DNA of 64,000 nucleotides, from assembly GCF_000011185.1 (NCBI RefSeq), contig NC_002689.2:992001-1056000 (forward strand), given 5' to 3'. The notes under the pieces are model-generated. The model saw only the letters and a program-made list of their open reading frames with translations. It was not told the origin of the DNA and ran no database searches. Each line of letters starts with the position of its first letter. Position 1 is the stretch's first letter. Source of the stretch: Thermoplasma volcanium GSS1. Its GTDB lineage: Archaea; Thermoplasmatota; Thermoplasmata; Thermoplasmatales; Thermoplasmataceae. The translations under genes were made by a program, and so were the position numbers. Positions 9,757-13,578 of this stretch are shown in pieces.

Positions 9757-9780
9757 GTCAAATATCCGTTGATATTTGAC
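9757..9780 (-). repeat. Perfect hairpin at the tnpB right end
   Basis: GTCAAATATC and GATATTTGAC, 10-bp perfect arms around a 4-base loop. The hairpin encodes the last residues of TnpB (QISTDI) and contains the stop codon. It could be the subterminal structure recognised by TnpA and the 3' end of the reRNA/omega-RNA scaffold. Confidence 0.6.
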
Positions 9781-10939
9781 TTCCTGCCATCTGCTCCACA
9801 TCTTTTGACTGCTTCACAGCTTCACCTGGCAGGCCTTTATGGGATCGTTTCAGACATGTCCGATACCTGAATGCAATGTTTATGCATGCATTCACATCAC
9901 GGTCTATCTCAAGACCGCAGGAATCACACTTCAGGATCCTGCCATGCTCTATTCGGGTCAGTGACCCACATACCGAGCACATCCTGCTGGTGTTCCTTGT
10001 TTCCTTTCTTGTCAGCTCTATGACAGGAAGGCCTTCCCATGATGCCTTATACATTACCTGGGATGCAAGCATCCCATATGGAAATGCATTCTTAAGAAGG
10101 AATCTGTAATCCTTCCCTTTTCCATCGCCCTTCTTTGTAATCTTATTTATTCCCCTAATGTTCTCAAGGACAATCATCTCTTTTCTCGTGGATGCGTTAG
10201 AGACAATTGCCTTGCTTGTTTCATGCATGATCTGCTTTACCCTGTTTCTTTCCCTCTTTCCATACTTTGATAAAATCTTCTCTCGAATCCTCCTGTCATT
10301 CCTGTGGAAATGGGATTCCTTCTTCCTGTAGCGTTGCTTGATCTCAACGACATTTGAGAGATCATATATTTCATGATGGAATTCATTCCCTACTGTTGCA
10401 TTCCTTAAATTCCGATCAACACCGACTGTAGTGGTGCATTCAATAGCATCGACATCCCTCCCTATGGTGAGAGAGAGTGTGTACGCCGACAAAGCAAAAG
10501 AATGCACTTTCACCATCGATGTTGCATCTCTTACATATGCATTCAGTGGTATGCTTTCGTATTCCCTATTGGCTATTGGGATCATTAGGTTTCCGCCAAC
10601 TATCTTAAACCCATAATATGTGGATAGCATTGGTTTCTCGACGTGAGGCACGGTTGCCTTCTGCTTTTTCTTCAATCTCTTCCTGTATGTCTTCACAAGT
10701 GCAACTGCCTTGTTAATGGCTTCTATATAATAATACGAAGGTATCTCGTATTCCTTAAGTTTATGATAAACTTCATTCGATACAGAATTTCTTGATGTAA
10801 GATTCTTCTCAATCATAATATTTATCGTGAAATTGACCATATCAGTAAACTTATGCATAAGCACCTTCAGGTTATCAGAAGGATAGAAATACTGTTTTAC
10901 GGCCTTGAAAGCGTACACAAATACATATACCACTATCAT
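9758..10939 (-). CDS. tnpB: TnpB, RNA-guided RuvC endonuclease of an IS605-type element
   Basis: 393 residues, apparently full length. RuvC-I Asp175 is in TTVGVDRNLRN, RuvC-II Glu259 in MIVLENIRGI, and RuvC-III Asp348 in IDRDVNACIN. A four-Cys zinc site (C321, C324, C338, C341) is in MCSVCGS...CDSCGLE. TnpB nucleases cut DNA next to the transposon's target motif, guided by an RNA transcribed from the element's right end, which helps the element persist at its site. All catalytic residues are intact. The start codon lies about 30 bp from a TATA element that sits outside the mobile element. Confidence 0.92.
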   Translation of the reverse strand: MIVVYVFVYAFKAVKQYFYPSDNLKVLMHKFTDMVNFTINIMIEKNLTSRNSVSNEVYHKLKEYEIPSYYYIEAINKAVALVKTYRKRLKKKQKATVPHVEKPMLSTYYGFKIVGGNLMIPIANREYESIPLNAYVRDATSMVKVHSFALSAYTLSLTIGRDVDAIECTTTVGVDRNLRNATVGNEFHHEIYDLSNVVEIKQRYRKKESHFHRNDRRIREKILSKYGKRERNRVKQIMHETSKAIVSNASTRKEMIVLENIRGINKITKKGDGKGKDYRFLLKNAFPYGMLASQVMYKASWEGLPVIELTRKETRNTSRMCSVCGSLTRIEHGRILKCDSCGLEIDRDVNACINIAFRYRTCLKRSHKGLPGEAVKQSKDVEQMAGSQISTDI

Positions 10940-11102: not shown

Positions 11103-11975
11103 GTGAAATACCAGGACAGCGCCGTGTCTGAAATAATAGGTACGGTTATACTCTTCGCCATAGTTGTTACTTTAGTAACGGCTTACATGTCTTGGTATGT
11201 TCCCTTACAGGAAGAAAGGTCCCAAGGGGAATACTATTCGGAAACATTGTCCGCAATAACCCAATTTGTGAGTAAAACTTACCAAAACAGCACCTTCGTA
11301 CAAGAGTTTCCTTCCGGCATATATTCAGGGATTGGCTCTACAGCTGATACAGCAGTCTCCTACAGTAATTCTTTAACGTCTTCTCTAAATGTAACTATGC
11401 AAATTGAGCTGAATGCCTCTGGCAAGCTGAAATATGTAAATGAAACGGAGGCATACACGACCGCGGGAATATTGAAAAGCTATCCTTATACAGATTTCTT
11501 AAAGGTTGAAACTTTCAATGTATATGGAAACTTTATATCTATTGATAAGACGTATTACGGACCTCTAAACTTCAACCTATCGAGCAACGAATTAAGATTC
11601 AATGGCGTTTCTTTATCTTCAAAGGGAAGCGTAGTTTCATCCCCGTCTTCTATATCTGTCTCAGGGGTTCCTGTTGAATCAAAGATCTTCCAAGCAGTCA
11701 AGGGGCAAATTCTGAATTTAAGCGGAACAAAAGGAATTGTAGAGAAAATAACAATACTCTCGCTAAACTATACTTTAAACGGAAGTTTTTCATTATCCTT
11801 ATTCCGCTATCTATCCTTCGCATTGAACGGGACTATAGAAGCGAACGAAGATAGTTTTAGATATAATAATATGACAATAAAATACGCTCAAAACTTTCTA
11901 AATGTTTCATCGATATCATCCTTCACTGTGAATGATTTCTATATCAACTACAGGGATTTCTATATTGCATTTTGA
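11103..11975 (+). CDS. Pilin-like archaeal surface protein
   Basis: 290 residues from GTG at 11103. The N-terminus MKYQDSAVSEIIGTVILFAI is a class III-type leader and hydrophobic stalk, matching archaeal type IV pilin/DUF1628-like proteins. The rest is a long Ser/Asn-rich extracellular region with many sequons (NST, NVT, NAS, NLS, NGT), so heavy N-glycosylation is likely. AAATATTTAT about 30 bp upstream may be the TATA box. No assembly ATPase or platform gene is nearby. Confidence 0.75.
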   Translation: MKYQDSAVSEIIGTVILFAIVVTLVTAYMSWYVPLQEERSQGEYYSETLSAITQFVSKTYQNSTFVQEFPSGIYSGIGSTADTAVSYSNSLTSSLNVTMQIELNASGKLKYVNETEAYTTAGILKSYPYTDFLKVETFNVYGNFISIDKTYYGPLNFNLSSNELRFNGVSLSSKGSVVSSPSSISVSGVPVESKIFQAVKGQILNLSGTKGIVEKITILSLNYTLNGSFSLSLFRYLSFALNGTIEANEDSFRYNNMTIKYAQNFLNVSSISSFTVNDFYINYRDFYIAF

Positions 11976-12342
11976 AAGATGCAGATGACTACCCATACAT
12001 ATTATTTAATCCAATGCTAAGGATTGTATTTGGCTTATTTTATTTTACTTCAAGGATATAGTCGTATTAAAATCTTAGAGAATCCGCAGCTAAAAAGGTA
12101 TTGACATTGTAGATTTCGTATAGGAAATGAAGTGCTGTATGCCATTCCAGTATTAAGGGATCCAATTATAAGGGATGGTAAGTCCTACATAGGGAGTTTA
12201 GAAGTTTAAGTCCTTAAAGATGATGTTTAATAGCCCAGCTTTTAACTATTTAATGCAATGGAATTTTTTGCGGTTATGCTATCGTACACAGGAACGCAAA
12301 TCATAATAAAATACTATTTATACCCAATTTCGATATAAACGC
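11976..12342. other. Long gap containing a degraded ORF
   Basis: This AT-rich gap separates the pilin-like gene from the glycosyltransferase. Its only coding-like content is the interrupted frame at 12024-12209. TATTTATA at 12315-12322 is a likely TATA box for the downstream gene. No tRNA, repeat or element end was seen. Confidence 0.5.
12024..12209 (+). pseudogene. Possible degraded small gene
   Basis: A frame starting at TTG 12024 and ending at TAA 12207-12209 has one in-frame TGA at 12102-12104. On either side it reads like protein: LQGYSRIKILENPQLKRY before and IGNEVLYAIPVLRDPIIRDG after. Not recognised. A decayed gene or chance are both possible. Confidence 0.25.
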
Positions 12343-12447
12343 ACGATTAGGATCTTAATATTTCTGTCCATACTTTTCAGTGTCATTTCGACAATTTACT
12401 ACTTTGCGAATAGCTACTTTTCATTCAGTTATAAAGAAGAAAATAAG

Positions 12448-13578
12448 ATGACAATAAGATATTCTACTAAGGACGTGACGATCGTTGTACCAGTATACAA
12501 CGAAGAAGTTGGTATATTTGCAGAAACCATGAAATCGCTAAGGAACCAGGGTGCAGTTGTTAAAGTCTTCGGCGACAGCTGTGATGGTGTTTACAAGCAA
12601 ATAGCAGAGTCCATGGGCTTCGATTTCATAAAGATAGAGGAACACGTAGGAAAGCGCGGCGTTCTCTCTAGATCTATGCAGTACGTTGATACTCCACTGG
12701 TAATGTTTGTAGACAGCGATACTGTACTGCCTCAGGGTGCTGTGTTAGACATGCTGAAATATTTCGATGATCATGTAGGCGGAGTTGGGACCAACATAAC
12801 GATAAACAAGAGTGGGCATCCTGTTTCTTATTCTTCCGAATTTGTAGAAAGAGTAAGGGAGGTTATATTCAAGTCTATATCCAAAAACAGTTCAGTAATG
12901 GTACTTGACGGTAGATGCGCCATGTACAGGGCAGATCTAGTGAAGCCTTTGCTTACTTCCAAGGAATTCACTGAAAACATAGTGATGGGCCGAAAAAGCA
13001 AGCTTGGTGATGATAGGCAAATTACTTCTTACTTAATAAGGCAGGGGTATAGAACGGTGAAAGATTATAATGTTTACGTCAGAACATACCAATATTCTAG
13101 TTTCAAGAAATTTTTTAGACAGCAGGTAAGGTGGGGAAGAGTCGGATGGACCTATTTCTTTAAGGATATATGGAATGGCACTGCAAGGAAAGCAGGGGCC
13201 CTTTATACTTTTGATTTGCTTTATATGTATCTGCTCCCTCTCTTCACTACTATTATAGCTATTCTCTCCTTAATTTACATTTTACCCCATATACACTTCT
13301 TCTTTGGTGGATCGGGGAAGATTGTGTATGCCGATGCGTACCTACGACTACGATTACACGATCCTTCGTTTATTCCTATTTTTTGGATCATCAGAACGAT
13401 AGTCGGATTCCTGAATACTGCAGCAATTGTCATCTTTGGCGTCACAATATCAGTTACTATCAAAAAGGAAAGATTTAGAGTTTTTGCTTATGGCGCACTA
13501 GGGCTGCTGCTAATGTACATTTCCACTATCTACGCGCTATTCACGTTCTTTAAGCAGGATAAATGGCTTACCCGCTGA
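12448..13578 (+). CDS. Family 2 glycosyltransferase, membrane-bound, hyaluronan-synthase-like
   Basis: 376 residues from the first ATG. The GT-A domain has TIVVPVYNEE, the nucleotide-sugar DSDTVLPQ motif, a DDRQ acceptor motif and QQVRWGR (QxxRW). Two to three transmembrane helices follow from about residue 255. This is the layout of processive GT2 enzymes that make or export polysaccharide. The frame is open for 46 codons before this ATG and encodes a basic stretch plus a transmembrane helix (ILIFLSILFSVISTIYYF) but has no ATG/GTG/TTG; an ACG at 12343 fits a leaderless start. The true protein probably begins there. Confidence 0.88.
   Translation: MTIRYSTKDVTIVVPVYNEEVGIFAETMKSLRNQGAVVKVFGDSCDGVYKQIAESMGFDFIKIEEHVGKRGVLSRSMQYVDTPLVMFVDSDTVLPQGAVLDMLKYFDDHVGGVGTNITINKSGHPVSYSSEFVERVREVIFKSISKNSSVMVLDGRCAMYRADLVKPLLTSKEFTENIVMGRKSKLGDDRQITSYLIRQGYRTVKDYNVYVRTYQYSSFKKFFRQQVRWGRVGWTYFFKDIWNGTARKAGALYTFDLLYMYLLPLFTTIIAILSLIYILPHIHFFFGGSGKIVYADAYLRLRLHDPSFIPIFWIIRTIVGFLNTAAIVIFGVTISVTIKKERFRVFAYGALGLLLMYISTIYALFTFFKQDKWLTR

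Follow-up and report, generated by a model that had tools for sequence, protein, structure and literature searches.

Where does the GT2 glycosyltransferase gene near position 12343 of this Thermoplasma volcanium DNA begin? Archaeal start sites are assumed to use three codons only, which is why a start at ACG would matter. The window that we analysed is a stretch of 64,000 nucleotides (bases 992001-1056000 of the single-contig genome of 1,584,804 bases). In it, the GT2 frame runs open for 46 sense codons between two consecutive TAA stops at 12304-12309 and ATG 12448, without one ATG, GTG or TTG, just as the first-pass annotation had described. The translated N-terminal stretch (NTIYTQFRYKRTIRILIFLSILFSVISTIYYF...) also agrees with that annotation, and the hydrophobic segment is present. 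From the TATA box to ACG 12343, no ATG, GTG or TTG was found in any frame. The features on which the argument rests are as follows.

12304..12309, + strand: in-frame stops TAA TAA, the upstream bound of the GT2 open frame
12315..12322, + strand: TATA box TATTTATA, centred 24.5 nt before ACG 12343, with a counterpart in all five Thermoplasma
12343..12345, + strand: putative start codon ACG, its A being the putative transcription start; ACG in 5/5 Thermoplasma species, aligned with orthologue starts
12343..13578, + strand: GT2 coding sequence, 411 codons plus TGA
12346..12426, + strand: N-terminal membrane helix, residues 2-28, in the AlphaFold2 model (pLDDT about 79-90 there); conserved in orthologues, across genera too
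12448..12450, + strand: ATG of residue 36, the first in frame and the start expected from a gene finder restricted to ATG, GTG and TTG; Met at this residue not conserved among congeners
12712..12720, + strand: DSD motif, residues 124-126, a DxD-type donor and metal site, invariant in 26 orthologues
13120..13134, + strand: QxxRW motif (QQVRW), residues 260-264, with Q, R and W invariant in 26 orthologues
13198..13542, + strand: C-terminal region with long membrane-type helices at residues 286-321, 344-372 and 377-400 (AlphaFold2 secondary structure)

The reading that we favour, with a probability of about 0.86, is that the gene would give a leaderless mRNA whose first codon, ACG, is read by the initiator Met-tRNA and opens the coding sequence of a membrane GT2 enzyme resembling NodC and hyaluronan synthase. 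The computed observations behind it are the absence of canonical starts, the conservation of the ACG and of its TATA spacing, the alignment with orthologue starts and the presence of a single initiator tRNA.

Conservation of the start region

A GT2 orthologue is present in all five Thermoplasma genomes examined, and in none of these species is there an in-frame ATG, GTG or TTG between the TATA box and the helix. ATG, looked for at the aligned codon of the congeners, is not there; the other four species have ACG as well, 24 nt 3' of the TATA core, the start-region codons across the genus being ACG ATT AGG, ACG GTA AGG, ACG ATA AGA, ACG ATA AGA and ACG ATA AGG. The codon after ACG varies within the genus, whereas ACG is invariant including its third base. 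By comparison, codon identity across the five species is seen in none of the 10 other columns with an invariant Thr and in 0 of 64 other invariant four-fold-degenerate columns, so the constancy of the ACG exceeds amino-acid conservation. ACG makes up 18% of threonine codons in the long open frames of our T. volcanium sample, which comprises the window and 20 further stretches (464 kb, 29% of the genome, 391 called genes).

Between ACG and Met36, the codons of T. volcanium and KMA_Bin19 differ by 18, 6 and 24 changes at positions 1, 2 and 3, respectively, and in pairwise comparisons over this interval changes are most frequent at third positions and rarest at second positions. By this substitution pattern, the N-terminal stretch between ACG and Met36 is coding. 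One orthologue, that of G002, is cut by TAG at codon 388 from the ACG, and its C-terminal 27 residues match a separate stretch (L033 / G002:C24:22068-22148); this early stop is either an assembly error or a frameshift.

For comparison beyond the genus, orthologue starts were positioned relative to the first GT-A strand (VTIVxPVY). In most genes of the family, the canonical start falls at codons -44 to -47 from this strand, and the ACG lies at -44 in T. volcanium and at -46 in its congeners, owing to a two-residue indel. The orthologues of other genera mostly carry ATG, GTG or TTG at the aligned codon and share the N-terminal helix; the helix therefore belongs to the protein, and the ACG occupies the start position. 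Eight genomes have no canonical start but an ACG within codons -53 to -41, namely, the five Thermoplasma, two MAGs of a second genus (G017, WH2.bin120, and G033, WY2.bin136; ACG ATA ATC at -44) and one genome of a third genus (G016; ACG at -51 rather than -44), the three outside Thermoplasma being drafts. As expected of a near-cognate start, the N-terminal coding sequence is conserved, a canonical start is lacking, and a near-cognate codon is kept where the orthologues begin. A further orthologue, from the high-GC MAG L184, lacks ACG as well as any canonical start in the interval from codon -53 to codon -41.

These comparisons bear on two other places where translation might begin. It is improbable that the ribosome uses the internal ATG 12448 and that the hydrophobic stretch upstream of it is untranslated or a fortuitous open frame. 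In favour of this ATG, no canonical start precedes it in the frame and the GT-A domain proper begins just 3' of it. Met36, however, is not kept by the congeners, in which the first canonical codons fall within or past the helix; the helix is conserved as protein inside and outside the genus in orthologues that start upstream of it, and no TATA box was seen at the leaderless spacing 5' of ATG 12448. The orthologue alignment, ACG in 5/5 species and the TATA spacing strongly support the earlier proposal, in which GT2 starts at ACG 12343 and not at ATG 12448. Slightly less probable still is a start at a neighbouring near-cognate codon (ATT 12346 or its counterparts), which would make ACG the last leader codon. 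ATT 12346 adjoins ACG, and the second codon is ATA in three congeners and two further genomes, but it is GTA in KMA_Bin19 and AAT in G016 while ACG is invariant. The adjacent ATT, suggested at first as an alternative initiator, is accordingly disfavoured (ATT, GTA, ATA, ATA, ATA in the genus), and the aligned codons favour ACG over its neighbour as the GT2 start.

Promoter spacing and probable leaderless transcription

The first-pass annotation had placed TATTTATA at the spacing of leaderless genes. The box at 12315-12322 is indeed centred 24.5 nt 5' of ACG 12343, and the comparison genes 26247, 4521 and 508 each carry a TATA-like box about 25 nt 5' of their ATG. Across the genus, a TATA core lies 23-24 nt 5' of the ACG in 5/5 species. 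When the spacing was scored with 6-mer TATA cores over the 464 kb, the enrichment at 23-28 nt before in-frame codons was 5-fold for ATG, 1.9-fold for GTG, 1.6-fold for TTG and 1.0-fold for ACG. It follows that the spacing is a real leaderless signal and that leaderless genes are common in T. volcanium and mostly begin with ATG, the GT2 gene being exceptional and not a member of a large ACG class. Within the sampled 29% of the genome, this test gave no enrichment that would indicate general use of ACG at the leaderless position.

Other genes with long extensions lacking canonical starts were inspected by eye, and none was seen with ACG behind a TATA box; by the same inspection, the cases could be put down to overlap with an upstream gene, to an interrupted gene or to noise. 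At L108:18184-18189 (genome about 978184), an in-frame TAA precedes an argininosuccinate-synthase-like frame whose protein seems, by eye, to extend upstream; the gene is possibly interrupted. At L106:947-2758 (- strand), a permease-like frame 604 codons long opens with 82 codons that lack ATG, GTG and TTG, include membrane-like stretches and overlap the end of an upstream frame.

In the eight ACG genes, the TATA core lies at -24 from the ACG in six and at -23 in one, and the eighth has TATATATA at about -24; all eight have a pyrimidine at -1 and A at +1. In GTG orthologues, TATA cores cluster at -23 to -27 from the start. The motif TGnACC stands exactly 40 nt before the ACG in G016, G017 and G033 and at an equal distance in the GTG orthologues L006, L020, L029, L050 and L053. 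A longer element, TGnACC(A/T)ATAA, just 5' of the TATA box and 40-46 nt before the GT2 start, was noticed in L006, L014, L020, L021, L025, L026, L029, L050, L061, L072 and others, though not at that place in Thermoplasma; from its sequence and position, it is possibly a regulator site.

Could the ACG be conserved as a DNA element at the transcription start, an operator or initiator, instead of as an initiation codon? We regard this as very improbable. ACGATA is repeated just 5' of the ACG in T. acidophilum, but such repeats are not common to all eight ACG genes, the conserved N-terminus lacks any canonical start, and the promoter geometry is unchanged in orthologues that start with GTG, TTG or ATG and have no ACG. 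It is even harder to credit that ribosomes first enter an upstream mini-ORF (ATG or GTG, in another frame) and reach the GT2 frame by a -1 shift at the ACG. In 5/8 ACG genomes, an ATG or GTG out of frame does open a reading that runs to a stop overlapping the ACG region, but these codons are too near the TATA box for a transcript beginning 25 nt downstream. T. volcanium, Thermoplasma sp. FL and G016 have no such mini-ORF, and on this ground we reject the frameshift.

The encoded membrane glycosyltransferase

The GT2 protein scores above the cut-off for GT2 Pfam models. Its best NCBIfam matches are NodC and PgaC; at 83.7 bits, below the curated NodC cut-off of 550, it is not NodC proper. The only PDB sequence matched by phmmer was Xenopus hyaluronan synthase 1. 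We built an AlphaFold2 model from 26 homologues (mean pLDDT 86.9), and the best folds matching it were the Chlorella virus and Xenopus hyaluronan synthases (best E 2e-16), the Pyrobaculum mannosyltransferase PcManGT and BcsA. Like the membrane GT2 synthases NodC, hyaluronan synthase and BcsA, the protein has a GT-A domain with DxD and QxxRW motifs and membrane helices at both the N and C termini, and this combination marks the polysaccharide-synthase type. It differs in lying far under the NodC cut-off and in sharing 14-18% identity with the structures.

The N-terminal transmembrane helix that had been claimed is present in the AlphaFold2 model and conserved in the orthologues. NodC has one N-terminal helix, and bacterial hyaluronan synthase has two. 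The description of the enzyme as hyaluronan-synthase-like is supported by the fold, but at the N-terminus the model has one helix and not the hyaluronan-synthase pair. One helix followed by basic residues, as in NodC, suggests by analogy that the N-terminus is outside and the GT-A domain cytoplasmic. The enzyme probably builds sugar chains; that the product is a surface glycan or lipoglycan is our guess.

Upstream of the gene, the protein encoded at window positions 11103-11975 (+ strand) has a weak archaellin/type IV pilin N-terminal match, and a pilin-like gene adjoins the GT2 gene in other Thermoplasma genomes too. The tRNA-methyltransferase-like gene that lies downstream was not found in the GT2 flanks examined of other Thermoplasma. 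Farther upstream, an open frame at 9758-10939 (- strand) resembles, to the eye, a transposon protein of the IS200/IS605 type (TnpB-like) and carries CxxC zinc motifs towards its C-terminus.

Proposed initiation at ACG and its evolution

A tRNA search returned 45 places, in which the sole initiator-type tRNA has the anticodon CAU and an A1-U72 pair. A special initiator tRNA matched to ACG was sought among these 45 places and not found, and tRNA-Thr(CGU) has an ordinary acceptor stem. As in near-cognate initiation elsewhere, then, the initiator is tRNA(CAU), with none matched to ACG. Since CAU is the only initiator anticodon found, the ACG would have to be read across a central C-A mismatch and is expected to be a weak start. 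In the mechanism that we propose for the favoured reading, RNA polymerase would start from the TATA promoter at the A of ACG 12343 and produce a leaderless mRNA beginning with ACG. The ribosome with Met-tRNAi(CAU) would initiate at this 5'-terminal codon, with A and G paired and the central mismatch tolerated. Initiation would probably be inefficient and insert Met. The resulting membrane GT2, of the polysaccharide-synthase type, would have 411 residues, a single N-terminal helix and about three helices at the C terminus. Retention of so poor a start codon probably serves to keep synthesis low.

We know of no mRNA editing in Thermoplasma, which speaks against C-to-U editing of the message that would turn ACG into AUG, as happens with some chloroplast start codons. 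A single C-to-U change would suffice, and plant organelles are known for editing that creates starts (PMC12548569); we nevertheless give this possibility hardly any weight.

How does the favoured ACG start compare with known systems? Archaeal mRNAs of all leader lengths start at AUG, GUG and UUG, fully leaderless Sulfolobus solfataricus genes avoid UUG, and Thermoplasma is listed among the wide users of leaderless mRNA (PMC7531240). On bacterial data, codon-anticodon pairing is regarded as a main contact that places a leaderless mRNA on the ribosome (PMC7531240). In haloarchaeal tests, GUG was weak and UUG undetectable on mRNA with a very short leader (PMC4574771), and in S. solfataricus the factor aIF1 selects against starts that are non-canonical (PMC8211752). 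Against the favoured reading stand the haloarchaeal result, the lack of general ACG enrichment in the 29% sampled, the draft state of the three genomes outside Thermoplasma, the -51 position in G016, and L184 with neither kind of start. The GT2 gene resembles the leaderless genes of Sulfolobus, Haloferax and Halobacterium in having a TATA box about 25 nt before its start and no Shine-Dalgarno-type leader, but differs from them in its first codon, ACG, there being no AUG, GUG or UUG in frame before the helix in the five species. Near-cognate ACG initiation occurs in eukaryotes and some viruses. Chloroplasts use non-AUG starts (PMC9845219). With these systems the GT2 gene shares a codon one base from AUG, an initiator tRNA(CAU) and a presumed low efficiency; those systems, in contrast, work by scanning or on leadered mRNA, whereas the GT2 gene appears leaderless and depends on archaeal machinery. 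The sequence comparisons thus support a case of leaderless initiation with a near-cognate start beyond the accepted codon set. No report of an archaeal ACG start was found in our searches of the open-access literature.

Among 79 unique GT2 orthologues, the start codons are 31 GTG, 27 ATG, 13 TTG and 8 ACG (non-ATG in 52/79), a choice among several possible canonical codons being settled in favour of the one nearest -45. ATG predominates among TATA-supported starts in general, in the T. volcanium genome as well as in the genes flanking the orthologues. From its sequences, the non-ATG skew of the family suggests selection for weak initiation, and we infer that a low yield of this membrane polysaccharide synthase has been selected for. 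On the maximum-likelihood tree of the 79 sequences, the ACG label needs at least three changes; these also fit one gain and two losses, yet supported branches with other starts separate the ACG groups. Overall, we think it likely that the 5'-terminal ACG is an evolutionarily stable leaderless start in Thermoplasma, serving as a translational brake on a polysaccharide synthase and reached three times in the family; archaeal ribosomes would then tolerate a central C-A mismatch when they initiate on leaderless mRNA.

If this is true, a conserved natural ACG start widens the archaeal start-codon set and provides a natural test case for start-codon stringency on archaeal leaderless mRNA, and gene finders limited to three starts mis-trim conserved proteins. 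Here, the ACG start would restore the N-terminal membrane helix of a GT2 widespread in acidophilic archaea, a helix that a three-codon gene finder would lose in Thermoplasma. Relatives of GT2 were also seen in Micrarchaeota MAGs and Sulfolobaceae from acidic sites (L142, L153, L177, L178, L181, L188, L190 and L195), which suggests either gene exchange among acidophilic archaea or misbinned contigs.
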